This document shows positions 1-39,858 of a stretch of 51,647 bases of DNA, one piece after another. Each line of letters opens with the position of its first letter. Within the stretch, counting starts at the first letter, position 1. The notes beneath the pieces are model-generated. The model did no database searches. It was not told the origin of the DNA and was given only the letters and a program-made list of their open reading frames with translations. A program made the translations under genes and the position numbers. Origin of the DNA: Bacteroidota bacterium (GTDB lineage Bacteria > Bacteroidota > Ignavibacteria > Ignavibacteriales > Ignavibacteriaceae); NCBI GenBank assembly GCA_021813585.1, contig JAKAJV010000089.1, positions 1-51,647 on the forward strand. Reading direction: 5' to 3'.

Positions 1-651
1 GATATTGTATTTTCTCATAGCGGAAAATCTATGGAAGCATCAAACGAAATCTTTTTTAATTCAAAGAGCCTCCAGATAGATGTAAGAGAGAATTTAGGAT
101 ACATAAAAGAAAATTTTGATCTGATAATCTCAATTCATTGCCAGCAGATTTTTCCCAAAGAGCTTATTCAATCGGTAAGGTGTATTAATGTGCATCCAGG
201 ATATAATCCATCGACGAGAGGCTGGTACACACACGTTTTTGCCATTATTTATGGTTTGCCGGCCGGTGCAACACTGCATGAAATGGATGAACTGATCGAC
301 CACGGGCCAATCATAGCGCGTAAATTAGTTGAGAAAGATATATCCGATACTTCATTTACGCTTTATAATAAAATATTAAAGGCAGAGGTAGATTTATTCG
401 CAGAAAACTTTGATTCGATTATGGATGGTTCTTATCAACCACAGAAAATAACTGAAGAAGGAAATCTTTTTACAAAAGCCGATTATAAAAAGCTATTGGA
501 GTTTGATCTTAACCAGGAAGGAAGGTTTATAGATTTTTATAACAGACTGAGAGCGCTTTCGCATAATGATTACCGTAATGCTTACTTTTATTCACCTACC
601 TCCGGTAAAAAGGTTTTCATTTCACTGATGACAGAGGTTGAAGATGAATGA
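1..651 (+). CDS. Sugar N-formyltransferase, 5'-truncated (dTDP-4-amino-sugar formyltransferase type)
   Basis: The reading frame is open from base 1, so the gene begins upstream of the window; an internal ATG at 31 is probably not the start. The visible part contains the formyltransferase core: the segment CINVHPGYNPSTRGW supplies the Asn and His of the usual Asn-His-Asp catalytic set, and MDELIDHGPI supplies the Asp. Family members such as VioF and WbtJ-type enzymes transfer a formyl group from N10-formyl-tetrahydrofolate to the amino group of a nucleotide-linked dideoxy-amino sugar in the cytoplasm. The C-terminal ~80 residues resemble the accessory region of these enzymes. The stop overlaps the next gene by 8 bases, implying translational coupling with the giant glycosyltransferase. 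The precise sugar substrate cannot be read from sequence. The formyl-sugar assignment is firm; a methionyl-tRNA formyltransferase is unlikely because of the HPGYNPSTRGW context and the genetic neighbourhood. Confidence 0.82.
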   Translation, partial: DIVFSHSGKSMEASNEIFFNSKSLQIDVRENLGYIKENFDLIISIHCQQIFPKELIQSVRCINVHPGYNPSTRGWYTHVFAIIYGLPAGATLHEMDELIDHGPIIARKLVEKDISDTSFTLYNKILKAEVDLFAENFDSIMDGSYQPQKITEEGNLFTKADYKKLLEFDLNQEGRFIDFYNRLRALSHNDYRNAYFYSPTSGKKVFISLMTEVEDE

Positions 652-3600
652 TATTATAGTCTCTGCATGCATAATTACTTATAATCAAGAGAAATATATT
701 GAGCAGTGTCTTCAAGGCGCCGTTGAACAGAAAGTAAATTTCTCTTATGAAATTATTATTGGTGACGACTACTCAACGGACAGGACAGGTGAAATTATTC
801 AGAGATATTCTGCGCAATATCCGGGCTTAATAAAATATTTTAGAAGAGAAAAGAACTTGGGGATGAATAAAAACTGGATTGAAACCATTAAGAACTGTTC
901 CGGTAGATATATAGCTATCTGCGAAGGCGACGATTACTGGACCGATCCTAATAAATTGCAAAAGCAAGTTGATTTTTTAGATTCCCATTCCAAATTTTCG
1001 CTAAGCTTTCATAATGCCCTCATAGTTTATGAAAACGGTAATAATCAAACCATACCTTTTTGCGATCCGGACCAGAAAGCTACATCTGCACTTCCGGATA
1101 TTATAAAAAAAAACTTCATCCCAACTGCTTCCATTCTATTTCGTAAAGCGAATGTAGAAAGCATTCCGGGCTGGTTCGATAAAATAAAAATGGCAGATTG
1201 GGCACTACACATTTTAAATGCCCGGCACGGAAAGCTTGGATATTTAAATGAGATAATGAGTGTTTATAGAATACATGATAACGGTATCTGGACCTCATTG
1301 TCGGAAGAAGACAATATTAATGCTAAGATAGAATTCTTTCAAAAGATTAATGATTATCTCAATTACAAATACGATGAGCATATTTCAATTAATCTAAGAA
1401 GCTTGCGTGAACGTCTGGCGAGGATTATTAAGAATGAACCAGGTCTTTCCAATATTACCGAATACGGGGAGTTCTTGAATCCAGAGATGTCTATCGAAAA
1501 TATGGATAAATACCTGGTACGCTATAGTATTTTGAATGCTATTAAAAATATTTTACCCGAGCTTAAAGGAGTACTGCTTGATGTAGGCTGCGGCGAAATG
1601 CCTTATAAAAAACTCTTGACTTCCTTTCCAAGTAATGTGGAAAAGTATATCGGGATGGACATTGAAAATCCGCTTTATCAGCAAAATATTAAGCCGGATT
1701 TATTTTGGGAAGGCAATAATATTCCTTTGGAAGATAACAGTGTTGATTGTGTGATTGCAACAGAATTTTTTGAGCACGTTCCGTATCCAGAGATAATTAT
1801 GGAAGAGATAAGCAGAGTTTTAAAGCCGGAAGGAGTTTTATTTTTAACAGTTCCCTTTATCTGGTCGCTGCATACAATTCCGAACGATGAATACAGGTAT
1901 ACTCCATTTGCCCTCGAACGGATGTTAAAAAAAACGGGCTTTACAAATATTAATCTCAAACCTTTAGGCGGATGGAATGCAAGCTTGGCTCAAACAATCG
2001 GTTTATGGGCACGCAGAAAACCGATGAACGATGAGGAAAGAAAAAAGATTTCAGAAAGCCTTTTTCCCTTCTATAAAAACTTGATTGAGACAGATCAAAT
2101 TCCTGATCAATTTACCGAAGGACAATTGATAACCGGATTATCCGGCACTGCGGTGAAAATAAAAAACGAGAGTGACGACGCAGATAAATACGTCAATTCG
2201 TTTAAGAAAGAAAATACCCTTGCAATCTTTACTCCAAATTTTGGAACTTTATCCGAAACATTTATAAAAAAACACATCGACTATTTGCTTCCAGGGAAAA
2301 CTGTTGTCGTTACAGGAAATATTTATGATAGAAATTGGGCAAACGTTCCGGTACTTCAAATTCCATACTCCGAGGGTCCCTCAAAATATTCTCCGGAAAT
2401 AGAAGATAAGGTCGAATCGTTTTTAATGCAGCACAAAGTTACTCACATTTTAGTTGAATATGGCTGTTACGGAACAGATATAATTGAATTAAATAGTAAG
2501 AAGTTGAATCTGCCGATCTTCGTACATTTTCATGGTGGCGATGCTGCAGCCATGTTAAGAAGAAAAGAAATGGTTGAACTTTATAGATGGATGGTAAGCA
2601 AAGTAAACGGTGTAATCGCAGTTGCAAAGCCAATGGCGAAAAGGCTTGCCGGCATAGGAATTCCGGGGGAAAAAATTGTTATTAATCATTATGGAATTGA
2701 TATACCGGAACATGTAGTAGCGCAGCCCGAAAAATCTCCGTGCCGTTTTGTTTTTGTAGGAAGGCTTACTCCTAAAAAGGCTCCTGATATAACTTTAAAA
2801 GCATTTTCCAAAGCGCGTAGCATTGTTAAGAATATTCATTTGGATATTGTTGGCGATCATTTTTTGCCAAATCAATCTACTTCAATGAAAGCGCAGCTTG
2901 AAGATTATACTGCGAAAAATAATTTGCTGGACGCTGTTACGTTCCATGGTGCCCAGTCAAACAAAAATGTAAAGGAAATACTTGTCCAGTCGTCGGCTTA
3001 TGTTCAGCATTCTGTTACTGTACCTGAAACCGGAGATGCCGAAGGACTTCCTAATTCAATTCTTGAAGCTTCAGCATACGGACTTCCAGTAATATCAACT
3101 TTTCATGAAGGTATCCCAGAGGAGGTGGAGAATTCTAAAACCGGTTTTCTTGTGAATGAATTTGATATTGATGCTATGGCAGAGTATATGATAAAACTCG
3201 CTAACAATCCAGAATTAAGAAAAACAATGGGATTAGAGGGAAGGAAAAAAATTGAGAACGAATTTTCCATAGAGAAATCAATCGTTGGGCTTAGAAAGAT
3301 AATTTTTACATCGCAGGAAAGCAGCAGAATGGTACAAAAGGTAAGCGAGATAAGGAATTTTATCTCGAAAGGAAATCTGGAAGAAGCAAAAGAATTATGC
3401 TATGAGTTGTTAAGTGAAGATACAGAATTTGCCGAAGCTTATTTCCTGCTTGGAGAATTAAATTATGCTTCATGCAATTACGAACAGGCTTCGCGAAATT
3501 ATCTTTCAGCATTTCAAATTTCCGGGCAAAGGATTGATGCGGCAGTGAAGATTGTTCTCTCAAATCTTAGGTTAAATCGCATGCATGACGCAATTAGATT

Positions 3601-6600
3601 TTTAAAGCAGGTAATAATTGAAAATCCTTATGATAAAAATTTGCTGCTGCTTTCCAAGGAATTGAAAGTTGAATTGCAGTGGGAAGATCTTAAAAATATT
3701 TCTTCGATAAAATTATATGCCGGTGATATCCCCGAAAAAGAAGAATATAAAAATCTTATCGGGCTTTCAATAGAAAAGAAAGATTACAGACACATATTTC
3801 ATGATGTTACCCATCCCTTCCCTTTACCGGATAATTCGGTAGACAGCTTTCAAGCTGAGGATGTATTTGAACACATTGCCTACGAAATGCTTCCGGCAGT
3901 GCTCGATGAAATTTACAGAGTGCTGAAACCAGGCGCTACTTTTAGATTATCTATTCCGGATTACGGCTGCGACGTATTAATTGAACGGAGTATAAAAGAC
4001 GAAAGCGGAAAAATAATTTTTGATCCTGCCGGCGGAGGCACGATTGAAAATCCCGGGCATGTATGGTTTCCCGATATTTCAAATGTAAAGGCTCTTCTGG
4101 ATAAAACCGCGTTTGCCGGAAGCGGCAAAATAAATTTTCTTCATCATTATAATACTGACGGCACTTTTGTTCTTAAAGATATTGATTACTCAAAGGGATT
4201 TGTAATGAGGAATCCCGATAACGATGGAAGGGTGCAAAATCCGAGACGACCAATGTCTCTTATAGTCGACCTTGTTAAACCTTTAAACGCAAATTCAAAT
4301 TCCGCCGGTGCCAATTCTCCCGAACTTTATTTTACAAATGAAAATTTAGATGCTGCTTTTCCAAGGCTTTCCTTTGTTATGATCGTCTTAAACGGAAAGC
4401 CATTTATTGAATATACCCTGAATGCAATATACAGCTTTGCGCAGGAAATAATAATTGTGGAAGGCGCGGTTGAAAAATGCTTGTTTGCTGCAAACCCGGA
4501 TGGTTCTTCAAAAGACGGTACCGTTGAACTCATTAAAAGCTTTCCCGACCCGGATAGAAAAATTCGTTTAGTGCAAGGCATATGGCTTGAAAAAATGGAT
4601 ATGCAGAACAAAGCGCTTGAGCTTGTGTCAGGTGATTATGTTTGGCTTGTCGACTCCGACGAAGTTTACAAACGGAAGGACATTGAAGCAATAATAAAAA
4701 TGCTGAAGGATGATACTTCGATAACGCAGATAAACTTTATCCCGGATAATTTCTGGAAGGGTTTCGATTATATTTTTGTCTCTCCGTACTTCTTCGAAAA
4801 AGAAGCTCATTACAGAAGAGTATTTAAGTTTGTTATGGGTGCAAAGTTTACAAGCCACCGTCCGCCAACATTATTTCTTCCGGGCATTAATAAAACGACT
4901 GAAGAACTCCATACCATCGATGGAAACACAACACGCGGAATGGGGATATATCCTTATCATTACAGTTATGTTCTTGAAGAGCAGGTGCGGCAGAAAATAG
5001 AACTATACAACCGCTACGGCTGGGGTAAGTCATGGAATATAGATTTGAACTTGTGGTTCAACGAATGCTACTTAAAATGGCTGCCGGAAAATAGAACAGA
5101 AATAGAATCTAAGTATCCTGTCTGGACAGGCGGCGGAAATTCGCATACAAAATTATTTGAAGGCGAACACCCGGAAGTGATGAAAGATTTTGTTGAGTCC
5201 ACTAGAAAACGAAAGATTAAAATTGCAGGCGAAGATGAGAAGGGAAAAGATTTAACCGAAGTAAATTCCCATTCCGCTTTTTCAGAAAGTATTTATAAAA
5301 TATTTGCCAGAACCAAGCCTAAAAAAATTATTGAAACCGGTACTTATCTCGGTAAAGGAACTACAAGGATTATAGCCGGCGCTCTAAGGGATTTGAAAAT
5401 AGATAACAGCCGGTTCTTTTCGATCGAGGTAAATGAAAGCAATTACCGCGAGTCGGTCAGGAACATTAAAAACGCCGGGTTAAGCAATTATGTTTCCATA
5501 TTGCACGGTCTTTCACTGCCGCGAAATATTTTGCCGTCGATGGAAGAGATAGAACAAAGAACGGTTAAGCAAATTGAGTTCGATGGAATATATGTGGATC
5601 ATAAAGAGAGCGAAAGAGCAAAATTATATTACAACGAAACGAATTTTAGCGGCACCGAAGACGACCTCCTGGGAAAATGCCTTATTACTTTTAATTACGA
5701 ACCAGATTTCATTTTACTTGACAGCGGCGGGCACATCGGAAACATTGAATTCAATTATCTAATCGAGAGGCTTAGGAAAGAATGTATAATTGCTCTCGAC
5801 GATATAAATCATATCAAGCACAGAAGCAGCTTTCTGCAAATGAAAAGCGATGCACGCTTCGAGATGATTATCTCTTCGGATGAAAAGTTCGGCTTCTGCA
5901 TTGCGAAATTCACTCCGACAGTAAGACATGCAATCAATACAGACCTTTTAAACTCAGTACAGCCTAATAAGATTTTGTTTGTCAGGACAGATTCGATAGG
6001 CGATAATGTAATTGCATCATCGGTGCTAAAGGAATTAAAAAATAAATTTCCCAATTCAGAGGTAACAGTAGTCTGCCAAAATCATATTGCCGGGCTTTAC
6101 GAAAATTGCCCTTATATAAAAAACATAATCGGCATAGAGAAGAAGAAGTTCGTCGAGAGTGAAGATTACAGAAATCAAATTATAAATAAAGTTCGAGAGT
6201 ATAAATTCGATTTAGCCGTTAACAGTGTATTCTCCAGTTCGATGGCGGATGATATGCTGGCTTTAACTTCGGGAGCTAAGATAACGGTTAGGATTGACGG
6301 AGATGCGACAAACAGCGAGTGGGAATCAATAAATAAAATTAGGGAGCTGTACACTTACGTTGTTAAAACAGGAGCCGGATGGCGGAGTGAATTAAAAAGA
6401 TATTCGGATTTTTTAACAGGGGCGGGAATTCACTTCGATGAATTAAATCCTGAAGTATGGCTTGCTGCTGAAGATGAAATGTTTGCGGGAAAAATATTTT
6501 TAGATAATAATATCGATCCGCAAAAAACTATAGTGCTGTTTGCAGGTGCAAAGGACGGGTGCAGGCATTCTTATAACTACGGCAAGGCGCTTAGCAGCTT

Positions 6601-9600
6601 TTGCCGGAAAAACCAATATAATGTTTTAGCAGTCGGCAGTGAAAAAGATTTTGAGGTTAATCAAAAGAACTTAGATGATATCCGGATTGAAAAAAAGATA
6701 AACCTATCTGGAAAAACTACTATTCGTCAAACGGCAGCGATCATAAAAAAATGCAAGCTGGCTGCAGGTGCCGAAACCGGAAATGCGCATATTGCATGTG
6801 CAGTTGGAACTCCCAATTTGATCTTATTAGGCGGCGGGCACTTCGGCAGATTTATGCCCTATTCAAATCTCACTTCTTTAGTATGCCATCCCCTGGACTG
6901 TTACGGCTGCAATTGGAACTGTACTCTGTCTTCATATAAATGTGTAGAGGATGTTTCAGTTGATCTAATCGAATTTGCACTTGAACAGACTTTAGCAAAG
7001 AAGGCGGATAAGACAAGAATATTTATCAAAGATACTGATCTGCCTAATAAAGAAATCATCGATAAATATTTGGAACAAAGGAATTATGAGGTAATTGAAT
7101 TTAAACCGAACGGAAATACAATTAAAAATTTATCCCGTATAAATACATCTTCCAATTCCCAGGAAAGCCAGAGTAATAAAGATAAATTTGATTTTAGCTG
7201 TTTAACTTACTCTCTTAAGTCGCATTTCAATTACTTTAAATCGAAGAGATACGATATTGAATTATTTGGGGAAGAAGTTGATCCGCTTAATTGCGATTTA
7301 AAAGCGTATCAGGATTTGCTTGTGTTTACTTACATCAAAGAAAATGTTCCCAAAGGAAGCAGACTCCTTGATATCGGCGGCGGCACTTCCAGAATTTTAA
7401 ATCATTTTGCAGATGAATACGAATGCTGGAACATAGATAAATTTGAAGGGCTCGGGAACGGACCGCAGAATATTCCTTTAGCTCCTTATAAAATTGTACA
7501 AGACTATATCGGAAATTTTAATCCCGGATTGCCTGAAAATTATTTTGACTTCGTATTCAGCATCTCAACTCTAGAACATGCGGGCGAAGAAGCGGAGTGG
7601 TACAAAAAAATATGCGCAGATATCGACAGGGTGTCTAAAAATAATGCCGTCAATCTTCATTGCTTCGATGTAGTTCTTGAAAAGCCCGGCGTGTCTGGGA
7701 AATATAATTGGTCATGCAGTTTACTGCCCTTCATGTTTAACAGATACGGGTCACAGCAAAAATTCCACGGGCTAGATGGAATTATAAATGACCCCGACCT
7801 GTTTTTCTTATCTCAAAAGTATTATGAAAACGCCTGGCAGAAAACAACCAGGGAAGAGTACTTCAAATTCGGGGTTCCGGTTTCTTACAATATTTTCTGG
7901 CAGACAAAGAGGAAGCCTGCAGCACCTGAAATTATTATTAAAAATAACTTTGAAAAAATATCGATCGTTACACCTTCCTTTAACCAGGCGGAATTTTTAG
8001 AAGAGACAATCGATTCTGTTTTAAGCCAAAAATATCCCGGACTCGAATATGTAATTATGGACGGCGGCAGCAGCGACGGTTCCGTAGATATAATTAAAAA
8101 GTTTGAAAAATATTTAACATACTGGCAAAGTAAAAAAGATAAGGGACAGTACAATGCAATTAACGAGGGCTTCCTGCATACCTCCGGCGAAATAATGGGA
8201 TGGATTAATTCCGATGACAAGCTGCACCCTGAATCCCTGTTTAAGATCAATGAAGCATTCAAACAAAATCCACAGGCTCGCTGGATAACCGGCAGACCGA
8301 CAGCGTGGAATAAAGACGGTTCTTTGAATATGATCTCGCCAAACCTGCCGGATTGGACGAGAGAAAAAATTCTGAACAAAGATTATAAGGATTCTTTCAT
8401 CCAGCAGGAAAGTACATTCTGGAAAAGATCATTGTGGAAAGATGCCGGAGGATATATCTCAACTGAGTCTCAGCTTGTAGGTGATTTTGAATTGTGGCTT
8501 AGGTTTTTCAGGTATGAAGAGTTATATACTGTTGATGAAATTCTGGGAGGATACAGGTATCAGCCCAATCAGAAAACGGCTTCTTCGTTAAATAAATATA
8601 TTATGGAAGCTGATTCGCTGGCTGACTCTGAATTGAAGCTAATGAAGGAAGGCAAGTTTACAAGGAATCAGCCTTTCCCCGGAGTTATTAAAATTAAGCC
8701 GGCATCAAGCCTTAAGCAGAGCGCCTACAATTCTGCTCAGCCTGGGGCGGATGATTTTATTATGGCAACGAGTCTTAATCCAAACGGCGGAAGCAATCAG
8801 CAAAAAGCCTATGAAAGCTGGCTGGAATCGGGCTTCAGAGTAGTATCATTTAATTGTGAAGAAGAAATTAGTCTGCTAAAACAAATTTATCCGGACGTAA
8901 TATTCTTCCCGGTTGAAAGGACTGCCTATGAAAGAGCAGGCAAGCATCTAGTTTACCTTGACGATATTCTTAATGGATTAAAAAAATTCCACAATAATTA
9001 TTTCGGATTAATTAATTCCGATATTATTCTTGACAGCTCTAAAATAAACAATGAGGCTTTTAAGAATAAATTAAAAGATTCTTTACAAGAAGGCTTGGTT
9101 TACTCAAACAGAATTGATATCGATCCGGATAATAATTATGAGGAAGAGTATAAGAAAGGATTTGACTTATACTTCTTCAGCAAAAAACAATTGGAGTTAT
9201 TTAATGGATTAAACTTTGCCATCGGCTTGCCGTGGTGGGACTATTACTTCATTCTGCAAGCAGTTTTTAATTCATTATCCATATTTAAAATAAATGAAAA
9301 GATCGCCTATCATTACAAGCATTCTTCATTCTACAGCGAGGAGATATGGTATGAGCTTGGAGAAACAATACTGGAATATGTTAATAGCCAAATCGTGTCT
9401 GCAGGAATAAGCGGAATCATAGACAATGATAAGAATGATCCTCTGATTAAAAAAGCCGCCGTGTATACGATCAGTGATGTTTCACTTAAAATTATCAAGA
9501 GCCGTTCAAAATTCTTCCAGCCGGTTTCGGATTCACCTGGTGAAGAATTAAATAACGATTACACCGGCACTCCCTTGCCGCCGGATAGAGGGATTAAAGT

Positions 9601-12600
9601 TTCGGCAATCGTTTCAACTTATAACTCGGAAAGGTTTATCCGCGGCTGCCTCGATGATTTGCTCAATCAATCTTTATATGAAAAAGGGCAGCTTGAAATT
9701 GTCGTTGTCAACTCCGGCTCGCAGCAGAATGAAGAAGAGATAGTAAAGGAATACCAAAGCAGGTTTAAAAATATTCAGTACATCAAGACTGAAAGAGAAA
9801 CTGTCTATCAAGCCTGGAACAGGGGAATAAAAATTTCTTCCGGCAAATGCATAACAAATGCAAACACAGACGACAGGCATAGAAAAGATGCGCTGGAAAT
9901 TTTAGCGGGAGAACTGGATGCAAATGAAAACATCGGTTTGGTCTATGCCGACCAGTACGTTACGAAAAAAGAAAATCAGACTTTTGAAAACAATGAAGCC
10001 GCCGGATATTTTGAATGGCTTGAATTTGACCGCATTCAGTTAATACATTGTGCATGTATCGGACCCCAGCCGGTGTGGAGAAAATCCCTGCATGAAAGAT
10101 TCGGGTACTTTGACGAATCGCTTAAGGTAGCTGGTGACTATGAATGGTGGCTGAGGATTTCTGAATATGTTCAACTAAAACATATACCTGAAAAGCTGGG
10201 ACTTTATTTATTATCCAGCAGCAGTATTGAACATAAACATGAAAACGAAACGAAAACAGAAACTGATAAGCTTAGGCTTCATTACGCTCGAAAAGCAAAC
10301 TTAAATGCACTGGATTATGAAAAATACAAATCAACATTTTTAACTCTTAATGATGAACGCCCGCCTGTCGTTTCGGTTATTATCCCGACATTCAACCGAC
10401 CGGATAAATTGAAAGAAGCAATTGCCAGCGTTCGCAAGCAGGATTATGATGCCTATGAAATTATTGTTGTTAATGACGCCGGCGAAGATGTGTCCGGCGT
10501 AATTAATTCTTTTAATGACAAGCGAATAAAATTAATTAATCATTCAGCCAACAAGGGACTGGCTGCTGCCAGAAATACCGGACTTAAAAATGCACACGGA
10601 AAATATATTGCTTACCTGGATGATGATGATGTTTATTATCCTGAGCATTTAAGAACTCTATTATCTTTTTTGGAACAGGGCAATTATAAAATCGCTTACA
10701 CTGATTCATACAGGGCAACTCAGGAACTTCAAAACGGAGAATACGTCACCGTAAAAAAGGATGTGCCGTTCTCGAATGATTTTTCAAAAGAAAAATTACT
10801 AAGGCTGAACATTGCGCCCGTTCAATGCTTTATGCACGAAAAGGCCTGCGTGAAAGATACAGGATTTTTCGATGAATCATTAAAGGCGCACGAAGATTGG
10901 GATTTCTGGATAAGGCTTTCGGGGAAATACGATTTTTATCATATCAAAAAAATTACCTCGGAGTTTAGGCAGAGAACCGATAACAGCAACATGACGAGCC
11001 TGCAAAGCCGGGACTTCTATAATTCATACAGAGATATAATTGCAAAGCATTATTTACGCAGCAAAAGCAGTCCGGAGCTTTTATCCGAACAAGTAAATAA
11101 TCTCGGCATCATAAAACAAAGGGCAGTTCAAGCAGGTCAAATGCAGAGATCCGGCGGGCTGATTGAAGTATCTATTATCATTCCGGTTTATAATAAAATT
11201 GAGTTTACTCAACAGTGTTTGTTAACGCTTTATAAAAACACCTCAGCCGAAATAAATTTTGAGGTTATTGTTGTCGACAATGCCTCTAATGATGGAACAG
11301 GACAATATCTGGAATTCGCGAAAAATGTTTTTACTAATTTGTCCTTTATAACTAACCGGGAGAACATCGGATTCGCAAAAGCAAATAATCTAGGCGTTAA
11401 GAATGCAAAGGGAGAATTTGTTCTTTTTCTTAATAATGATACCGAGCCATTGCGCGGATGGCTTGAGAATCTTTTAACGGTAATTAAGAGCGATAAGAAA
11501 GTTGCTGCGGCGGGAAGCAAATTACTATTTCCCGATGGAAGCCTTCAACATGCTGGTGTTATAATAATAGAAGACAAACAGCTTCCCGATCCGCTTGTAG
11601 CGCGTCATATATACTGGAAAGCGCCGGCTGATATTCCGGAAGCAAATCGCTTAATGACTTATCACGCCTTAACCGCGGCATGCCTTATGGTTAGGAAGGA
11701 CGTCTTTAACGAAGTAAAAGAATTTGATGAAGAATATTGGAACGGCTATGAAGATGTTGATTTGTGCTTTAAGCTTGGTGAAGCAGGGTATAAAATGGTT
11801 TATCAGCCTGCAAGCGTTGTAATTCATCATGAATCCCAGAGCGGACCGGAACGCTTTGCAAAAGTCTCTCATAATATAGACCGGCTCCATAAAAAGTGGC
11901 TCAGCAAAATTAAACCTGACTTTATTCTGGAAAAAAATGGGGAAGGCATTCAGACGGACGCCGGCTTTATAAGGGACTACATTACGTCGAAGACGGCAGA
12001 CCGGAATAAAACTTCAGATAAAAATAATACAAACTTGTTTGACGCTTCGATCATCGTCTTAACGTATAATGGATTGGAATATACCAGGCAGTTCCTTGAA
12101 TCAATTAAGAAAAATACAAAAGTAAAATACGAATTAATTTTAGTTGATAACTGCAGCAGCGATGGAACCGTTGAGTTCCTTAAAAAATTTGTTAAGGATA
12201 AACCAGGCACTAAATTAATCCTTAATGAAAAAAATCTGGGCTTCCCGAAGGGTGTTAATCAAGGATTAAAAATTGCTTCAGGGAAATACATCGTTATTGC
12301 CAATAACGACATTGTTGTAACCAAAGGCTGGCTCGAAAGAATGATTGCTGCTGCTGAGCAAGAAGAAAAGATTGGATTAGTTGGACCTATTAGCAATGCT
12401 GTAAGCGGGATGCAGATTGACAAGGATGCTGTATATCCGGATATAGAAAAAATGCATGAATACGCCGGGAGAGCTGCGAAGAAAAATAAAGGGCAGATAT
12501 TACAGTTCCCCCGTGTGGCTTTTCTTTGCACTCTGATTAAGAGAGAAGTAATTGAAAAAATCGGAGGACTTGACGAGCGGTTCTCACCCGGCAACTACGA

Positions 12601-14770
12601 AGATGATGACTTTTGTCTAAGAGCCCAGCTTGCCGGATTCAAGACAGTTATCGCCAAGGATGTCTTTATACACCACTACGGCTCAAAAAGCTTTACGGCG
12701 GACGGAGTAGACAAGTACAAGGAAAGATTGGAGATAAATCAAAAAATATTTGTCGATAAATGGGGTGCAACACCCGAAGAGATTTGGTTAAAAGGAAAAA
12801 AAATAAAAGAAAGGAATATTATGTATGCCTTGAACAAGAACGAATTTACGGAAAATCTGGAGAGGGCACTCTCCCTTGTAGAGGAAAAAGATTATAGCGC
12901 TGCTCTCCGTCATTTAAACAACTCTATAAGCAACTACCCGGAATATGATCACGGAGCTCAGGATGTGGAGCTCGCTTACCTATTGAACCTTGCCGGGAAT
13001 GTATCGCTGATTGCAGGCGATGTAAGCGGAGCGCAGAAATATTTTGAGAAAGCTTTGAACGAAGACAGCACTTCGTCATACGCATGCAGCGGATTGGGTG
13101 ACGTGCTGTTTAACGAAAGAAATTACCGCGGCGCAAAAACCATGTACGAGTGGAGTCTTAAGAACAAAGTTAACAACGAAGCGGCGGCAACGGGATTGAT
13201 AAAAGTGAACAAGCTGCTTAACCTGCCGGCGGCAGACAACTCGCTTCTGAATGCAAGCGTTAGCGGAGTAAGCGAAGCAGTTTTTGAAGAGGTTAAACCC
13301 GATCCTAACGAGCTTATCAGCGAGGCGTTCGATTTGTTCGGCGAAAAACAGTTCACTAGAGCGCTGGAAAAACTTAACCAGGCAGAACGGCTTTTTAACG
13401 GCCAGCTCAGTCATCCTACCGATAAAGGCTTTGCTTCATCCTTCCATAATATGAGAGGATTTAATTATTTGGGATTGAACGACCTTGAGAATGCGAAATC
13501 ATGTTTTGAAAAAGCATTGAATCTTGATCCGAACTCTTCGCAGGCATGCGCCGGTTTGGGCGAAACACTCTTCCTGGAAGGGCATGATGAAGCCGCAAAG
13601 GCAATGTTTGAATGGGCAGTAAAAAATAATTCCGAAAACATGTTTGCGGTTGGGGGATTAAGAAAAGTGAACAGACTTCTTAATTATCCTGAAAATCATT
13701 CCTCGCTGAATGAAAACGGCACGGAGGAAATCAGCATGAAGATAGCACACAGAGATGATTTCGGAACGCTGTTTAATAAGTTGGGACTAAAAGGAAGGGG
13801 CGCGGAAATAGGCGTGCAGACGGGGGTATATTCGCAGACTCTTCGCCAAAGCTGGGAAGGGAGGGAGCTGTATTTAATCGACCGGTGGAGATTTGATCCG
13901 GGCTATAAAGATATTGCAAATATCCCGGATGAAGAGCAGAAAGAAAATTATATGATCGTTGTGGAGAAATTTATTGACGACGACAGCGTGCAGATAATAC
14001 GGAAAGATTCGCTGGAAGCGGCAAGGCAGTTCCCCGACGAATTCTTCGATTGGCTCTACCTGGATGCCGACCATTCATTAGAAGGATGCGCGAATGATCT
14101 TAGAGCATGGTATCCTAAGCTGAAAACGGGAGGAATATTTGCCGGGCATGATTATATTGACGGGGAATTCATCGGCGGAGTGTTCGGTGTTAAAAGCGCT
14201 GTCGACGGATTTATCTCAGGTCTAAACACCGGTCTTTATCTTACCGAAGAGACTCCGTTGAGAAGCTGGTACTTTGTTAAGCCGGCGGATAAAGTAAACC
14301 TGCCTTCCGGCATAGTTAATGAAGACAAACAGGTAAACAGTGCGGAACAGGAAAAGCTGCAGTCGGTTTTGAACGAATTGCTTGAGGCTTCTTTCGAGTT
14401 GTTCGGGATGAAGTGCTACAGCGATGCGCTGGAAACATTAAACAAATCGGAAGGACTGTTTTATTCACAGCAGAGAGAGGAGCTAATCTCTTCGTTCGAG
14501 AACATAAAGGGTTTTAATTACTTGGGGCTGAATGATAAGGAAAGTGCCCGGCAGTGCTTTGAGAAAGCGTTGAACTTGAATCCCGCTTCATCCCAGGCCT
14601 GCGCGGGGCTAGGCGAAGTGCTTTATCTTAGCGGCAAGGACGAAGATTCGAAGACCATGTACGAGTACGCAGTAAAAAACAATCCCGGTAACAAGTTCGC
14701 CGCAGCCGGATTGGCAAAAGTGAATAAGCTTTTGAAACTCCCTGAAAATCATAATTCATTGATGCACTGA
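644..14770 (+). CDS. Giant multimodular glycosyltransferase/methyltransferase/TPR protein (4708 aa)
   Basis: The start is ATG at 644, chosen over an upstream in-frame TTG at 638 because AGAGG lies at the right distance. Approximate modules by residue: GT2 (6-265, with IIGDDYSTD and EGDDYW); SAM methyltransferase (305-470, LLDVGCGE); GT4-like (524-886, ending in the E-x7-E-type segment EGLPNSILEASAYGLP); TPR-like (895-995); methyltransferase (1021-1213); GT2 (1242-1519, VDSDE); class I methyltransferase (1562-1763, IIETGTYLGKG); GT9 heptosyltransferase-like (1776-2116); methyltransferase (2239-2419, LLDIGGG); GT2 (2438-2683); unassigned domain (2703-2920); four GT2 (from 2984, 3242, 3508 and 3800); TPR; methyltransferase (4364-4549, GAEIGVQTG); TPR to the end. 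No signal peptide or membrane segment is evident, so it is probably a cytoplasmic enzyme. It probably builds and methylates a glycan, most likely on flagellin given the downstream fliC. Domain families are clear; linkages, order of action and acceptor are unknown. No internal stop or frameshift interrupts the 14-kb frame. Confidence 0.85.
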   Translation: MNDIIVSACIITYNQEKYIEQCLQGAVEQKVNFSYEIIIGDDYSTDRTGEIIQRYSAQYPGLIKYFRREKNLGMNKNWIETIKNCSGRYIAICEGDDYWTDPNKLQKQVDFLDSHSKFSLSFHNALIVYENGNNQTIPFCDPDQKATSALPDIIKKNFIPTASILFRKANVESIPGWFDKIKMADWALHILNARHGKLGYLNEIMSVYRIHDNGIWTSLSEEDNINAKIEFFQKINDYLNYKYDEHISINLRSLRERLARIIKNEPGLSNITEYGEFLNPEMSIENMDKYLVRYSILNAIKNILPELKGVLLDVGCGEMPYKKLLTSFPSNVEKYIGMDIENPLYQQNIKPDLFWEGNNIPLEDNSVDCVIATEFFEHVPYPEIIMEEISRVLKPEGVLFLTVPFIWSLHTIPNDEYRYTPFALERMLKKTGFTNINLKPLGGWNASLAQTIGLWARRKPMNDEERKKISESLFPFYKNLIETDQIPDQFTEGQLITGLSGTAVKIKNESDDADKYVNSFKKENTLAIFTPNFGTLSETFIKKHIDYLLPGKTVVVTGNIYDRNWANVPVLQIPYSEGPSKYSPEIEDKVESFLMQHKVTHILVEYGCYGTDIIELNSKKLNLPIFVHFHGGDAAAMLRRKEMVELYRWMVSKVNGVIAVAKPMAKRLAGIGIPGEKIVINHYGIDIPEHVVAQPEKSPCRFVFVGRLTPKKAPDITLKAFSKARSIVKNIHLDIVGDHFLPNQSTSMKAQLEDYTAKNNLLDAVTFHGAQSNKNVKEILVQSSAYVQHSVTVPETGDAEGLPNSILEASAYGLPVISTFHEGIPEEVENSKTGFLVNEFDIDAMAEYMIKLANNPELRKTMGLEGRKKIENEFSIEKSIVGLRKIIFTSQESSRMVQKVSEIRNFISKGNLEEAKELCYELLSEDTEFAEAYFLLGELNYASCNYEQASRNYLSAFQISGQRIDAAVKIVLSNLRLNRMHDAIRFLKQVIIENPYDKNLLLLSKELKVELQWEDLKNISSIKLYAGDIPEKEEYKNLIGLSIEKKDYRHIFHDVTHPFPLPDNSVDSFQAEDVFEHIAYEMLPAVLDEIYRVLKPGATFRLSIPDYGCDVLIERSIKDESGKIIFDPAGGGTIENPGHVWFPDISNVKALLDKTAFAGSGKINFLHHYNTDGTFVLKDIDYSKGFVMRNPDNDGRVQNPRRPMSLIVDLVKPLNANSNSAGANSPELYFTNENLDAAFPRLSFVMIVLNGKPFIEYTLNAIYSFAQEIIIVEGAVEKCLFAANPDGSSKDGTVELIKSFPDPDRKIRLVQGIWLEKMDMQNKALELVSGDYVWLVDSDEVYKRKDIEAIIKMLKDDTSITQINFIPDNFWKGFDYIFVSPYFFEKEAHYRRVFKFVMGAKFTSHRPPTLFLPGINKTTEELHTIDGNTTRGMGIYPYHYSYVLEEQVRQKIELYNRYGWGKSWNIDLNLWFNECYLKWLPENRTEIESKYPVWTGGGNSHTKLFEGEHPEVMKDFVESTRKRKIKIAGEDEKGKDLTEVNSHSAFSESIYKIFARTKPKKIIETGTYLGKGTTRIIAGALRDLKIDNSRFFSIEVNESNYRESVRNIKNAGLSNYVSILHGLSLPRNILPSMEEIEQRTVKQIEFDGIYVDHKESERAKLYYNETNFSGTEDDLLGKCLITFNYEPDFILLDSGGHIGNIEFNYLIERLRKECIIALDDINHIKHRSSFLQMKSDARFEMIISSDEKFGFCIAKFTPTVRHAINTDLLNSVQPNKILFVRTDSIGDNVIASSVLKELKNKFPNSEVTVVCQNHIAGLYENCPYIKNIIGIEKKKFVESEDYRNQIINKVREYKFDLAVNSVFSSSMADDMLALTSGAKITVRIDGDATNSEWESINKIRELYTYVVKTGAGWRSELKRYSDFLTGAGIHFDELNPEVWLAAEDEMFAGKIFLDNNIDPQKTIVLFAGAKDGCRHSYNYGKALSSFCRKNQYNVLAVGSEKDFEVNQKNLDDIRIEKKINLSGKTTIRQTAAIIKKCKLAAGAETGNAHIACAVGTPNLILLGGGHFGRFMPYSNLTSLVCHPLDCYGCNWNCTLSSYKCVEDVSVDLIEFALEQTLAKKADKTRIFIKDTDLPNKEIIDKYLEQRNYEVIEFKPNGNTIKNLSRINTSSNSQESQSNKDKFDFSCLTYSLKSHFNYFKSKRYDIELFGEEVDPLNCDLKAYQDLLVFTYIKENVPKGSRLLDIGGGTSRILNHFADEYECWNIDKFEGLGNGPQNIPLAPYKIVQDYIGNFNPGLPENYFDFVFSISTLEHAGEEAEWYKKICADIDRVSKNNAVNLHCFDVVLEKPGVSGKYNWSCSLLPFMFNRYGSQQKFHGLDGIINDPDLFFLSQKYYENAWQKTTREEYFKFGVPVSYNIFWQTKRKPAAPEIIIKNNFEKISIVTPSFNQAEFLEETIDSVLSQKYPGLEYVIMDGGSSDGSVDIIKKFEKYLTYWQSKKDKGQYNAINEGFLHTSGEIMGWINSDDKLHPESLFKINEAFKQNPQARWITGRPTAWNKDGSLNMISPNLPDWTREKILNKDYKDSFIQQESTFWKRSLWKDAGGYISTESQLVGDFELWLRFFRYEELYTVDEILGGYRYQPNQKTASSLNKYIMEADSLADSELKLMKEGKFTRNQPFPGVIKIKPASSLKQSAYNSAQPGADDFIMATSLNPNGGSNQQKAYESWLESGFRVVSFNCEEEISLLKQIYPDVIFFPVERTAYERAGKHLVYLDDILNGLKKFHNNYFGLINSDIILDSSKINNEAFKNKLKDSLQEGLVYSNRIDIDPDNNYEEEYKKGFDLYFFSKKQLELFNGLNFAIGLPWWDYYFILQAVFNSLSIFKINEKIAYHYKHSSFYSEEIWYELGETILEYVNSQIVSAGISGIIDNDKNDPLIKKAAVYTISDVSLKIIKSRSKFFQPVSDSPGEELNNDYTGTPLPPDRGIKVSAIVSTYNSERFIRGCLDDLLNQSLYEKGQLEIVVVNSGSQQNEEEIVKEYQSRFKNIQYIKTERETVYQAWNRGIKISSGKCITNANTDDRHRKDALEILAGELDANENIGLVYADQYVTKKENQTFENNEAAGYFEWLEFDRIQLIHCACIGPQPVWRKSLHERFGYFDESLKVAGDYEWWLRISEYVQLKHIPEKLGLYLLSSSSIEHKHENETKTETDKLRLHYARKANLNALDYEKYKSTFLTLNDERPPVVSVIIPTFNRPDKLKEAIASVRKQDYDAYEIIVVNDAGEDVSGVINSFNDKRIKLINHSANKGLAAARNTGLKNAHGKYIAYLDDDDVYYPEHLRTLLSFLEQGNYKIAYTDSYRATQELQNGEYVTVKKDVPFSNDFSKEKLLRLNIAPVQCFMHEKACVKDTGFFDESLKAHEDWDFWIRLSGKYDFYHIKKITSEFRQRTDNSNMTSLQSRDFYNSYRDIIAKHYLRSKSSPELLSEQVNNLGIIKQRAVQAGQMQRSGGLIEVSIIIPVYNKIEFTQQCLLTLYKNTSAEINFEVIVVDNASNDGTGQYLEFAKNVFTNLSFITNRENIGFAKANNLGVKNAKGEFVLFLNNDTEPLRGWLENLLTVIKSDKKVAAAGSKLLFPDGSLQHAGVIIIEDKQLPDPLVARHIYWKAPADIPEANRLMTYHALTAACLMVRKDVFNEVKEFDEEYWNGYEDVDLCFKLGEAGYKMVYQPASVVIHHESQSGPERFAKVSHNIDRLHKKWLSKIKPDFILEKNGEGIQTDAGFIRDYITSKTADRNKTSDKNNTNLFDASIIVLTYNGLEYTRQFLESIKKNTKVKYELILVDNCSSDGTVEFLKKFVKDKPGTKLILNEKNLGFPKGVNQGLKIASGKYIVIANNDIVVTKGWLERMIAAAEQEEKIGLVGPISNAVSGMQIDKDAVYPDIEKMHEYAGRAAKKNKGQILQFPRVAFLCTLIKREVIEKIGGLDERFSPGNYEDDDFCLRAQLAGFKTVIAKDVFIHHYGSKSFTADGVDKYKERLEINQKIFVDKWGATPEEIWLKGKKIKERNIMYALNKNEFTENLERALSLVEEKDYSAALRHLNNSISNYPEYDHGAQDVELAYLLNLAGNVSLIAGDVSGAQKYFEKALNEDSTSSYACSGLGDVLFNERNYRGAKTMYEWSLKNKVNNEAAATGLIKVNKLLNLPAADNSLLNASVSGVSEAVFEEVKPDPNELISEAFDLFGEKQFTRALEKLNQAERLFNGQLSHPTDKGFASSFHNMRGFNYLGLNDLENAKSCFEKALNLDPNSSQACAGLGETLFLEGHDEAAKAMFEWAVKNNSENMFAVGGLRKVNRLLNYPENHSSLNENGTEEISMKIAHRDDFGTLFNKLGLKGRGAEIGVQTGVYSQTLRQSWEGRELYLIDRWRFDPGYKDIANIPDEEQKENYMIVVEKFIDDDSVQIIRKDSLEAARQFPDEFFDWLYLDADHSLEGCANDLRAWYPKLKTGGIFAGHDYIDGEFIGGVFGVKSAVDGFISGLNTGLYLTEETPLRSWYFVKPADKVNLPSGIVNEDKQVNSAEQEKLQSVLNELLEASFELFGMKCYSDALETLNKSEGLFYSQQREELISSFENIKGFNYLGLNDKESARQCFEKALNLNPASSQACAGLGEVLYLSGKDEDSKTMYEYAVKNNPGNKFAAAGLAKVNKLLKLPENHNSLMH

Positions 14771-14774
14771 GTAA

Positions 14775-16283
14775 ATGAAACATCTGCCGAAAATATCTTT
14801 AAGCATGATCGTTAAGAACGAGGCAGAACACCTGCGCGAATGCCTGGAATCGGTAACGGGGATTACGGACGAAATTATTATTGTCGATACGGGTTCTTCC
14901 GATTCGACTGTAAGCATTGCCGAAGAGTTCGGCGCATCCGTTTACTTCTTCGATTGGACGGACGATTTTTCGGCTGCGAGGAATTATGCTCTTAGCAAAT
15001 CTTCCGGCAATTGGATTTTATACCTTGATGCGGACGAGAGGCTTTCTAGAGGATCGGTAGAAGAGCTTAAACGAATTACTTTGGGCAACAGGCTAACCGG
15101 CTGCAGATGCATTGTAAACAGCGTGGACGATATTAACGGAAGGCCGAAGTATAACCGCTATACCCGTCTGTTCAGCAGCCACCCCGGTATTAAATTTACC
15201 GGCCGGGTGCACGAGCAGATAGACGAATCCCTTATAGAGAACGGGTACTCATTAGTCGACGCTGATGTCGAGATAATCCATGTAGGCTACAACATTCCGG
15301 CCAAGGAGCTGAAGAAGAAAGCTGAGAGGAATTTAGCTATTCTGAAAGAAGAGTACTTTAAGAATGCATCCGTGTACAATGCTTATCAACTGGCGAATAC
15401 ATACTCTATACTTGATGATGATGAGAATGCCCGTGTGTATTATCTGGAGGCGGTAAGCAGCGAAGGACTTAATAGCGAGTATAAGGCACACGCGTATCTT
15501 AATCTTGCCGGCTATGAATTTAAAAAGCACAGCCTGGACGCAGCGCTCGGGTATCTGCAGCAAGGCTTGCAGAACGATGAATTGAATCCCGTGCTGAACT
15601 TGCTTGCCGCGGATGTATATTTCAGGCTGAATAGGAAGGAAGACTCGTTCCTAGGCTGCATATTTGCATACATGGCGAATGAGAAAATAAGAAAAGAGAA
15701 AACGGTATCGGCTCTTACGATAGGGATAAAGCCGGAGGCGGCGCTTTGCAAAGGAATTTATTACTCTCTGCTTGCATCGGACAAAGCCCGGCTGAATTAT
15801 TTTACTGCCGAGCTTCGAAAGCATAACAGGGATCTTACTCTGCTGGTTAAGAAACTAAATGGAAATGAAGCTCTCAGCGCCGAAGGAATTAAGAAAATTT
15901 CAGGAATGATGTCGGAGGACAATCTCGATGCGATACTTCTGCTGCTAGAGAATTACACGGACAAGAAAACAGCGCTGGAAATACTGCTCGGCGCTGTAAA
16001 CAAGTTCAGCTTGAACGCAAAGTACATGAATACTCTCGGTCTTATGTATTATGAGAACGGCATGAATGCCGAAGCAGTCCGGATATTCGAAGGATGTTTA
16101 AGTCTTAAAGAGAAAGACCCTGCCTCGGTGTTTTATCTTATCTCCGTACTGATAAGAGAGAACAAGCCAGAGAAGGTGCCTGAAGTGCTGCTTTTCGCGG
16201 AGAAGGAATTCGGACATATACCTGAATTCAATGCTAAGCTTGAAATTCTAAAAGAGAAACTGGGTATGATGTTTAAAGGATGA
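14775..16283 (+). CDS. GT2 glycosyltransferase with C-terminal TPR repeats
   Basis: It begins four bases after the giant gene's stop, so it is almost certainly co-transcribed. Residues 1-230 are a GT-A fold of the GT2 type seen in TPR-GT2 proteins related to SunS and WaaE. SMIVKNEAEHLRECLESV forms the nucleotide-binding start, VDTGSSDST follows at about residue 37, and the metal-binding LDADE lies near residues 84-88. The characteristic GRVHEQI segment near residue 145 is present. The remainder (about 190-500) is helical with TPR-like repeats, for example a late copy reading NTLGLMYYENGMNAEAVRIF. Such enzymes transfer a sugar from a nucleotide donor; some glycosylate peptide side chains, which would suit a flagellin-priming role, but this is inference. 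A run of 7-bp tandem repeats starts two bases after the stop. Confidence 0.85.
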   Translation: MKHLPKISLSMIVKNEAEHLRECLESVTGITDEIIIVDTGSSDSTVSIAEEFGASVYFFDWTDDFSAARNYALSKSSGNWILYLDADERLSRGSVEELKRITLGNRLTGCRCIVNSVDDINGRPKYNRYTRLFSSHPGIKFTGRVHEQIDESLIENGYSLVDADVEIIHVGYNIPAKELKKKAERNLAILKEEYFKNASVYNAYQLANTYSILDDDENARVYYLEAVSSEGLNSEYKAHAYLNLAGYEFKKHSLDAALGYLQQGLQNDELNPVLNLLAADVYFRLNRKEDSFLGCIFAYMANEKIRKEKTVSALTIGIKPEAALCKGIYYSLLASDKARLNYFTAELRKHNRDLTLLVKKLNGNEALSAEGIKKISGMMSEDNLDAILLLLENYTDKKTALEILLGAVNKFSLNAKYMNTLGLMYYENGMNAEAVRIFEGCLSLKEKDPASVFYLISVLIRENKPEKVPEVLLFAEKEFGHIPEFNAKLEILKEKLGMMFKG

Positions 16284-16398: not shown

Positions 16399-19300
16399 AT
16401 GACGGTAAGCTATCAGGAAGCAGTCAAACATTTTAAGAAAAAGGATTATCAATCCGCAGAGAATATATTGGTGAATCTAAAAGAGCGGGAGCGGGACAAC
16501 GCCGATGTAATTTACTTTCTTGCCGTTGTCAAATCTAAGACGGGCGACCTCGGCGGGGCGGAGCCTCTATTCAGGCAGGTAATTCAGCTTGTACCCGATC
16601 ATACCGAGGCGCATTATAATCTTGCCCTGTGCCTTCAGAACCGGAATATGAACGAGGAAGCTTTGCACTATTACCGGAAGGCTGTTGAGCTTAATCCGTT
16701 TCTTTCGGAAGCCTTCAACAATATTGCACTAATCTACAAAGGTATGGGAAGATTCGATGAAGCCGAGGCTGCGTTTAAGAAAGCAATAAAAGCTAAGCCG
16801 GGCAACACTAGCGCGATGAGCAACCTCTCAAATCTTTCCCTGGATAAGGGACATTCTACAGAGTACGGTAGAGCGCACGAGCTGTTTATGAAAAAAGATT
16901 TTGCCGGTGCGAGGGACATCCTTACAGACTTGCTTGCCAAAAACCCCGGCAGCCTGCAGATTCTTAACTCACTCGGTGTAATAAATTACAACCTGGGCGA
17001 GTTCGAAACAGCGGCAGGTTATTATAAAAAGATACTTTCAATAAATGAAAACAATGCGGAAGCTGAATACAGTCTGGGTGTTTGTCATCAGGGGCTGGAT
17101 AACAACGACCAGGCGCTTATCCATTACAAGAGAGCGGTAGAATTAAATCCCGAATATGTCGATGCTTTTAACAACATGGGTCTGCTTTATGCCGCCTTGA
17201 AAAATTACGATGAGGCCGAGCGTTACTACAGACTGGCGCTGAAGTATAACCCGGAATATTTTAACGCTATAATTAACCTTGGCAGCATACGGTTGTACGC
17301 GGACGATTTTAAAGGGGCGTCGGAACTATTTAATACTGCTCTGGCAATAGCAAGCGGAGAGAAGGACAACGCCGCCGGAATATCGGTAGCATACAGCAAT
17401 ATAGGCTTTATGCATTTAAGGCGTAAGAATATAGACGAAGCGATAAAATATTTTGATATAAGCATTGAATTAAATCCCGGCAGCGTGCTGGCGCATTACA
17501 ACAAAGCCGAAGCGCTTCTAGTCTCCGGAAGGTATGAGGAAGGCTGGAAAGAATACGAATGGAGAACCGGGAGAAAAGACTTTGGCAAGAGGAAGTTTAA
17601 AGAGCCCTTTAAGCCGGAATATGATTTGAACGGAAAGAGAGTGCTTGTATACGCGGAACAGGGATTGGGCGACGCGCTGCAGTTTGTGCGCTACCTGCCG
17701 ATGCTGAAAGCGAAAGGATGCTTTGTAATATTCGAGTGCGGTAAGGAGATGCACGCGCTTCTTAAAGGCTTCAAAGGCGCGGATCAAATTATTGAGCGTA
17801 ACCCCGTTGAGTCACCGGACATCGAATACGATTATGAAGTGCCTCTGCTGAGCCTTCCGCAGTACTTTAACACTACGGTTGAAAATGTTCCCGCAGTAGT
17901 ACCGTATCTTAAGGCCGACGGGGGATTGAAGAAATTATGGGCCGACGTAATTAGCGACGAAGAGAAGGTAAAGATAGGAATAGTCTGGGCGGGCAGCCCA
18001 ATACACACAAACGACAAGCACCGTTCCGTAAGGCTGCAGCAGTTTATGAATTTGCTATCTACGGAAGGAACTCATTTCTACAGTCTGCAGAAGGGCTTCC
18101 CCGTAATACAGGCGAACGATTACAGGCTTTTGCTTACCGTGTTAGACGAGCAGATAAAATCTTTTTCGGACACAGCCGCGATAATCGAAAACCTCGATCT
18201 GGTTATAACGGTCGATACATCGGTAGCACATCTTGCAGGTGCGCTGGGCAAGGAAGCCTGGGTGCTTATCCCTTACATGCCCGACTGGAGATGGCTGCTG
18301 GAAGGGGAAAGATCAATCTGGTATCCTACGATAAAATTATACAGGCAGCCCGCGGTAGGCGATTGGCATTCGGTATTCCACCGGTTAAAGAAAGACCTTA
18401 CGGCATACGTAAAAGCGAAGAGACCTGCTGCTGCCGGAATGCCGGAGATTACCGGCCTTAGCCAAGGACTGAATACTTCCCAGATTAAACATACTTCATG
18501 CAGTAACGATTTATACCTCGCCCTTACTTCCGGCGAAAACTTCGGGTGGGGAGTGTGCAGTAAATATCTTAAGAAAGAACTGGCGCTTAAAACACGAATA
18601 GTAAATGTGGAAGAGCATCAGGAATTATATAATAAAGGACGGGTAAACGGCACCGTATTTCATGCTTTGAACAACAACGACTTCAGCAGCCTGCATCCCG
18701 TGCGGGGATTGAAGAACATCGGCTATACGTTCTTTGAATACGAGTTGAGCGATACAGCCGTAAAGAACGCAGTGAATTACAACTTTGTTCTGGGCGGTTC
18801 TTCTTGGAACGAATATAAGCTGAAAGAAAGAGGAGTAAAGAATACAGGAGTCCTGATTCAGGGCGTGGATTCCGAACTGTTTTACCCGGGTGACAGAAAT
18901 AAGAGCAGCGATCTGTTTATAATTTTTTCAGGTGGAAAATTCGAGCTGCGCAAAGGGCAGGACCTGGTGCTGGCTGCGGTTAAAATACTCCAGCAGAAGC
19001 TTCCCGATGTGGTGCTTATAAACGCGTGGTACAATATGTGGCCCGGCACTATGCATTCGATGAGCGCTTCGAAGCATATTAAATACGAGTATAAGGGCGA
19101 TACCTGGGCGGGCTTTATGGTTAACCTTTGCAAGATAAACGGCATAAACGGAGAAAAAATATTTACGCTTCCGCTAATACCCAACGACAAACTAAGAGAT
19201 CTTTATCTCAGCTCCGATATCGGATTGTTTCCCAACAGATGCGAAGGCGGGACAAATCTAGTTCTGATGGAATACATGGCTTGCGGCAAGCCGGTTATTG

Positions 19301-23834: not shown

Positions 23835-23861
23835 TAAACAAATAAAAACACCTGCCGATAA
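23835..23861 (+). promoter_or_regulatory. Sigma-28 (FliA) promoter of flagellin
   Basis: TAAA at 23835-23838, a 15-base spacer, and GCCGATAA at 23854-23861 match the sigma-28 consensus exactly in both boxes and spacing. The expected transcription start is near 23868-23871, giving a leader of roughly 80 bases before the flagellin ATG. It fits the FlgM-like anti-sigma-28 gene encoded 3.5 kb downstream. Confidence 0.92.
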
Positions 23862-39766: not shown

Positions 39767-39858
39767 ATTCACACCGGTTGTTAATTATTAATGTACGCAT
39801 AGCCGGGGGACTCTAAAGTGTTCAGTTAATAATGTTCAATAATACAAAGGGAAAAAAA

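Follow-up and report, generated by a model that had tools for sequence, protein, structure and literature searches.

A giant multi-glycosyltransferase and methyltransferase protein encoded in a putative flagellin glycosylation island of an Ignavibacteriaceae bacterium

Is a bacterial reading frame that strings together about fifteen glycan-modifying modules a real gene, what would its product act on, and could the order of its modules matter? These questions are raised by a contig of 51,647 nucleotides from a Bacteroidota bacterium (family Ignavibacteriaceae; GenBank assembly GCA_021813585.1, contig JAKAJV010000089.1), which was analysed over its whole length and is called the window here. A frame on its forward strand (638/644-14770) runs uninterrupted from the ATG at 644 to the stop codon at 14770 and encodes 4,708 amino acids, as a first-pass annotation of the sequence had claimed. 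Based on the list of open reading frames, the translation and Pfam matches, the product of 644-14770 (forward strand) is a giant multi-glycosyltransferase/methyltransferase protein, referred to below as the giant. An assembly or base-calling artefact that joined several genes has to be considered, as the genome is in 142 contigs and this contig begins inside a formyltransferase gene. We counted a junction between modules as supported when one alignment with at least 30% identity covered at least 80 aa on each side within one frame of another genome. Overall, 15 of the 17 junctions were supported in this way, some by a single genome (two junctions by genome G004, three by the Planctomycetota locus L015), with the limit that the aligned partner may be a paralogue for junctions between two GT2 modules. 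The two junctions unspanned in other genomes both flank the orphan module 11 (see below). Against an artefact stand these 15 recurrent junctions, upstream frames of 3,071 to 3,935 aa in four other islands, a 2,337-aa frame in a one-contig genome (G078) and the fact that the sole other open reading frame of at least 150 aa within 644-14770 is one of 164 aa on the opposite strand. We therefore consider an artefact extremely improbable.

Pfam searches with the full-length protein and with 17 successive segments of it gave a domain order that starts with GT2, MT11, GT4, TPR, MT11-like, GT2, MT24, GT9 and MT11 and continues with GT2, an orphan stretch, four GT2 domains, TPR, MT24 and TPR. PF00535 (GT2) was found seven times, in the pieces starting at aa 1, 1240, 2410, 2940, 3240, 3530 and 3790, the GT4 (group 1) domain at aa 699-868 and the GT9 domain at about aa 1981-2089, while Methyltransf_11 was found at three places (at one of them with the second half of the profile only), Methyltransf_24 at two and TPR at three. 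The seven GT2, one GT4, one GT9 and five methyltransferase-type modules with TPRs proposed from the sequence were thus recovered by Pfam. With all coordinates on the forward strand, the chain begins with a GT2 of GT-A type (module 1, 644-1483; PF00535, 3.6e-26; motifs DDYSTD, EGDD and ADW read in the sequence), a class I methyltransferase with the motif LLDVGCGE (module 2, 1484-2173; PF08241, 3.1e-15), a GT4-type GT-B with an EX7E motif (EGLPNSILE, aa 800; module 3, 2186-3328; PF00534, 7.4e-33), a TPR segment (module 4, 3329-3727; PF14559, 1.2e-7) and a methyltransferase-like module (module 5, 3728-4351; second half of PF08241, 9.6e-8). These are followed by a long-form GT2 with the motif DSDE (module 6, 4355-5263; PF00535, 1.4e-11), a Methyltransf_24 module with ETGTYLGKG (module 7, 5276-5848; PF13578, 4.4e-6), a GT9-like GT-B with ETGNAH (module 8, 5891-7093; PF01075, 3.2e-12, 46.7 bits against a cut-off of 22) and a Methyltransf_11 module with LLDIGGG (module 9, 7226-7903; PF08241, 6.6e-5), whose sole match at E 1e-5 among the loci compared is in L015 (47%). 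Another GT2 (module 10, 7946-8623; PF00535, 6.2e-25) precedes the orphan domain (module 11, 8627-9463), after which four GT2 modules stand in a row (module 12, 9581-10303, 1.1e-24; module 13, 10355-11113, 1.3e-36; module 14, 11156-11983, 1.7e-19 on a piece that lacked its first strand; module 15, 12026-12808, 7.9e-31; all PF00535). The C-terminal end consists of a TPR array (module 16, 12821-13738; PF07719, 4.5e-20), a Methyltransf_24 module with EIGVQTG (module 17, 13751-14308; PF13578, 4.4e-15) and a second TPR array (module 18, 14309-14767; PF07719, 8.9e-11) that is 56% identical to module 16 over 147 aa. No obvious transmembrane segment was found in the giant, the highest Kyte-Doolittle mean over 19 residues being 1.29.

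The stretch that the first reading had left unassigned (module 11, aa 2662-2940) has no match in Pfam, and neither have three of its homologues; sequence searches against the PDB returned noise only. An AlphaFold model from the single sequence was unusable (pLDDT 34), while an AF2 model from a five-row alignment, which included homologues from a Planctomycetota MAG and from viral (IMG/VR) contigs (two of them, L136 and L137, identical), reached a pLDDT of 75.8 and a pTM of 0.77. Foldseek matched this model to K4CP (2z86, E 1.9e-8) and VIA to the CHSY3-CHPF complex (9q8z_B, Z 14.8, rmsd 3.1, 178 aligned residues), with WrtF and SpsA at a Z of about 14. The predicted fold of module 11 is therefore GT-A, and the giant has ten glycosyltransferase-type modules rather than the nine or so first counted, next to five of methyltransferase type. 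Nucleotidyltransferases also appear lower down in the lists of fold matches, and because some of them share the fold, the fold alone is no proof of sugar transfer by module 11. The residues conserved in its family (NxD, PWWDY and HxxH) would fit a GT-A active site. The module is rare (it was found in two of 296 genomes from the phylum, one being that of the window) and points to a glycosyltransferase-like family missing from Pfam. Its three viral relatives were found by the alignment search and none of them by the single-sequence search. The family is thus also present in viral contigs (L135-L137); in L135 the orphan GT-A domain forms the C-terminal portion of a protein of 581 aa whose neighbour genes look glycosyltransferase-like by eye.

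A giant of this kind could consist mostly of degenerate relics with few active modules, and two features would agree with that: module 5 has no SAM loop, and the GT9 motif of module 8 is the least conserved (E in 67%, T in 75%, G in 67% and H in 100% of 12 relatives). However, all seven GT2 modules (1, 6, 10 and 12-15) match PF00535 above the curated cut-off and have a DxD-like motif read in the sequence, and the DxD-type residues are 92-100% conserved among the relatives of the six GT2 modules that were scored (module 1 was outside this set). The Methyltransf_24 motifs are also largely conserved in relatives; in module 6 a second catalytic motif was not recognised. Conservation was scored for 10 of 14 modules, the other four (GT2a, GT4, MT11a and MT11b) having a single homologue each, and within this set the motif residues were largely retained instead of being absent from most modules. 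In seven of 13 comparisons between a module and its relative dN/dS was 0.059-0.112, a sign of purifying selection, the other six being saturated at synonymous sites. Degeneration of most modules is quite improbable in the light of these data. Module 5 (aa 1029-1236) is a case of its own. The first-pass annotation had listed five methyltransferase motifs, one of them weaker; five modules of this type are present, but the weaker one has no glycine-rich SAM motif, and none was found in its homologues in G004 and G033 either. Module 5 is probably no working methyltransferase, yet it is 83% identical to its G004 counterpart with a dN/dS of 0.083, so it has probably retained a non-catalytic or altered role.

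The genes around the giant point to its probable substrate. On the forward strand the order is formyltransferase, giant, GmaR/SunS-like GT2-TPR, TPR-GT, GT-MT, MT, flagellin and FliD. The first gene (1-651), whose 5' end is lost at the contig boundary, encodes a sugar N-formyltransferase of the dTDP-4-amino-4,6-dideoxyglucose type (NCBIfam NF005755, 259 bits against a cut-off of 238; PF00551, PF18216), and a single sugar-nucleotide gene is visible in the window because the contig starts at base 1. The giant's first 8 bp overlap the end of the formyltransferase gene, and its stop is followed after 4 bp by another gene. This gene (14775-16283, forward strand) encodes a GmaR/SunS-like GT2 with a C-terminal TPR, which we propose as the priming enzyme and used as a marker of the island; its product matches GmaR in the PDB (22ao, 3e-31, residues 5-193 only) and SunS (7msp, 2.6e-21), with a score of 98 bits against the SunS family profile of NCBIfam that lies below the cut-off of 350. 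GmaR is a flagellin O-GlcNAc transferase, which combines flagellin glycosylation activity with binding of MogR. The GT2 domains of Listeria GmaR and Bacillus SunS correspond to this neighbour and not to the giant. Further downstream, again on the forward strand, are a TPR superhelix with a group-1 GT-B (16399-19563; PF00515, 3.9e-55; PF00534, 9.9e-13), whose TPR part resembles OGT and SPINDLY, a 908-aa fusion of GT-B (PF13524), GT2, TPR and methyltransferase identified with Pfam (19990-22716) and a stand-alone methyltransferase (22725-23822; PF08241, 1.2e-16). An exact sigma-28-type site, TAAA-N15-GCCGATAA, was found by pattern search at 23835-23861 (forward strand) and ends 90 bp ahead of the flagellin start; TAAA-N15-GCCGATAA is what we take to be the sigma-28-type consensus. 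Sites with at most two mismatches number 25 in the window against 10.2 expected, and none of 100 shuffles reached 25. The proposed acceptor is the flagellin at 23952-24836 (forward strand; PF00669, PF00700), in which 29 of the central 77 residues are Ser or Thr, followed by the filament cap FliD at 25267-27063 (forward strand; PF07195, 5.8e-38). Glycosyltransferase genes thus lie close to flagellin and FliD, and we treat the region as a flagellin glycosylation island. Beside the flagellar genes, a dense cluster of genes at 27786-51647 encodes sensor kinases, a sigma-54 response regulator, a LytTR regulator, CheW and two chemoreceptors, and a 467-aa open reading frame at 39832-41235 has no Pfam match.

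A search for homologues and their neighbouring genes yielded related islands in many other genomes. Among 147 genomes of the order with a completeness of at least 80%, 88 gave a match to the GmaR-like marker at E 1e-30. From the 97 listed places of the marker, 89 were fetched, the omitted ones being the window itself, six tandem second copies and one weak match. Flagellin or FliD lay within the fetched stretch in 66 of these 89 islands (on the marker's strand in 64), and in the other 23 some stretches run off the contig or have a TPR-GT gene next. Upstream of the marker and on its strand, 42 islands have a frame that reaches 1,500 aa, 24 one that reaches 2,000 aa and four one that reaches 3,000 aa; these counts are lower bounds given the ends of contigs and stretches, and the largest same-strand frame was taken whatever its domains, so that a 1,985-aa frame (L086) was counted by size and has no glycosyltransferase by local profiles. 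The largest of these frames has 3,935 aa, which makes the giant of the window the largest among the islands fetched. Frames that reach 1,500 aa number 45 with the window's included; by local profiles, 39 of them have at least three glycosyltransferase modules and nine of these 39 also a methyltransferase, counts that are lower bounds because giants such as that of L056 and the 2,290-aa frame of L053 stay mostly unassigned by these profiles. The 3,301-aa giant of L017 (Ignavibacteria bacterium) aligned in the same way as that of G068, a genome of the same family. Some islands, L092 and L105 among them, have the GmaR-like gene and flagellin but lack a large upstream frame; in these two the giant is replaced by frames of 608-624 aa. 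Across the phylum, the order included, the marker gene alone was counted in 64 of 392 genomes.

The Planctomycetota MAG (L015) encodes a 2,620-aa giant that is related to the window's over most of aa 1240-2663, with 70% identity to module 6 across phyla. Positions 883-21933 of this locus comprise the giant, a gene of its own for the orphan GT-A module and a GT2 gene, flanked by a flagellin-family gene (with a Flagellin_N match only) and FliD; the orphan GT-A gene shares a 4-bp overlap with the stop of the giant. L015 has a GC content of 53%, whereas that of the window and of five other loci compared ranges from 31 to 40%. An alternative explanation is that the giant builds a cell-surface polysaccharide (O-antigen or capsule) and is found close to flagellin by coincidence; its GT2 modules gave high scores with the NCBIfam profiles of polysaccharide glycosyltransferases (TuaG, EpsD and WcaA), all under cut-off. 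However, its frequent neighbours are flagellin, FliD and the GmaR-like enzyme, also in the MAG from another phylum, and no flippase, polymerase or undecaprenyl-phosphate sugar transferase was found among the window's open reading frames scanned (the upstream region is missing). This polysaccharide role appears quite unlikely to us. For the methylated glycan proposed at first, a flagellin-directed role is supported by location (in the window, in 66 of 89 loci and in L015) and by conserved active-site motifs.

A second part of that proposal, an assembly line on one scaffold, fared less uniformly. Relatives differ in their module sets block by block (see below), which agrees with it, but the single frame is not kept throughout. 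The 2,337-aa frame of G078 is collinear (72-79%) with a pair of frames in G077 (1,141 and 1,192 aa) that overlap by 4 bp, G077 and G078 being one-contig genomes of one genus, and in G004 such modules are spread over several adjacent frames. Therefore, one covalent scaffold is not a necessity for all members of the group, and the modules appear to act as a set for which a single chain is not obligatory. The giant might also be cut by proteases into ordinary separate enzymes, in which case the fusion would have no mechanistic meaning. One collinear unit occurs in a split (1,141 + 1,192 aa) and a fused (2,337 aa) form, which suggests that the parts can also function separately, although we consider such processing unlikely.

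Different blocks of the giant match different relatives that are about equally distant from the window genome, as judged from rpoC identities of 92.7-93.3% (415-858 aa compared) for G001, G004, G007, G008 and G012. At E 1e-50 and among 146 genomes, aa 281-1236 has a full match in G004 only (78%), with module 5 alone in G033; at E 1e-40, module 6 matches only G007 (82%), G033 (67%) and G050 (56%); and at E 1e-120, aa 3238-4055 matches G001 (75%), G133 (66%) and G048 (52%), and partly G040, G042, G085 and G086. Over 18 windows of 250 aa, seven different genomes gave the best match. Abrupt changes were also seen between other giants: within one frame, identity between those of G139 and G134 is mostly 82-98% and then 24-58% from near aa 1100, and between those of G109 and G039 mostly 70-98% and then 24-54% from near aa 1500. 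Two results speak against a property peculiar to the giants. Those of L054, L119 and L044 showed no partner switching, and TPR-GT genes can switch as well: among 14 TPR-GT genes used as an imperfect control (four windows each; one row, L087, was left out as it is not a TPR-GT gene), eight kept one best partner and six switched among two to four. Local alignments that end in linkers were rejected as evidence, linkers aligning poorly anyway. Recent transfer as the whole cause of the mosaic was likewise rejected: synonymous divergence (pS) is 0.60-0.70 in seven modules and 0.76-0.91 in the other six, compared to 0.70-0.77 in rpoC, from which the G008 row (pN 0.50) was dropped as apparently in the wrong frame, this pair being otherwise 93% identical over 415 aa. 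Because synonymous sites are nearly saturated, old exchange is indistinguishable from differential loss in the blocks of the window's giant, and either may have occurred.

Taken together, the giant is likely a soluble multifunctional enzyme of the cytosol, which lengthens and methylates an O-glycan that its GmaR-like neighbour would have started on flagellin. By homology, the GmaR/SunS-like GT2-TPR enzyme would add the first sugar to Ser or Thr of flagellin before export. Judging from their domains, the giant and its neighbours (TPR-GT, GT-GT-MT and MT) would then lengthen the chain from this sugar by as many as about ten residues, some of which they would methylate, and at least one residue may perhaps be 4-formamido-4,6-dideoxyglucose because the formyltransferase gene adjoins the giant. 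TPR segments may hold the modules, flagellin or the priming enzyme together, and the glycoflagellin would then be exported. A stronger version, in which a polypeptide of about 0.5 MDa would specify, through the order of its modules, the sequence of the methylated flagellin oligosaccharide and diversification would proceed by swapping, inserting or deleting entire glycosyltransferase or methyltransferase modules, is a tentative idea that we find rather doubtful at present. Modular PKS/NRPS systems are assembly lines with a carrier domain that holds the growing chain. Shared with the window's giant is a giant modular protein with module turnover between genomes, and no carrier domain of PKS/NRPS type is among the Pfam matches of the 17 pieces.

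Fused glycosyltransferase-methyltransferase precedents are known on a smaller scale, and the giant is an extreme version of them. In Clostridioides difficile, the type B flagellin glycosyltransferase GT2 (CDR20291_0242), encoded beside flagellin, combines GT2 and methyltransferase domains in a single chain; it elongates a GlcNAc that another glycosyltransferase has attached, and addition and methylation of rhamnose have been proposed for it (PMC5207246). As described there it is a small fusion, whereas the window's giant has ten and five modules of the two types. Enterobacterial islands beside flagellin encode SPINDLY-family GT41 proteins, most of them with methyltransferase domains too, together with formyl- and methyltransferases, and unlike for the window no giant multi-glycosyltransferase frame is described in the accessible parts of that paper (PMC4875605). 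The chlorovirus PBCV-1 protein A064R is a GT-GT-MT fusion of 638 aa whose domains act from N to C terminus in vitro (PMC9614988), and both it and A111/114R (GT-GT-GT) extend a protein-linked glycan (PMC9614988, PMC7826918); they have three modules each and serve the N-glycan of the viral capsid, the likeness to the giant being one of architecture. The corresponding excerpts on islands of Aeromonas (PMC7874193) and Geobacillus (PMC5109656) mention no fused enzyme of the giant's size. Among the literature matches listed, mostly non-subscription papers represented by titles and the beginnings of abstracts, there was none on flagellin glycosylation in Ignavibacteria and none on a flagellin glycosyltransferase this large.

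The window's frame, with about fifteen modules (ten of glycosyltransferase and five of methyltransferase type), thus belongs to recurrent giants that show module turnover among relatives and that therefore constitute a natural experiment in glycan diversification. A comparison of flagellin glycans between relatives that differ in one segment could assign modules to sugars; one such pair is formed by the genomes of L082 and L103, whose giants share mostly 82-98% identity over the first 950 aa and about 24-58% over aa 1100-1850. Non-templated glycan synthesis is usually said to lack a gene-readable code. If module order maps to sugar order, such giants would provide one, and the structure of a flagellar glycan could be read from the gene in bacteria of this order and in a planctomycete.
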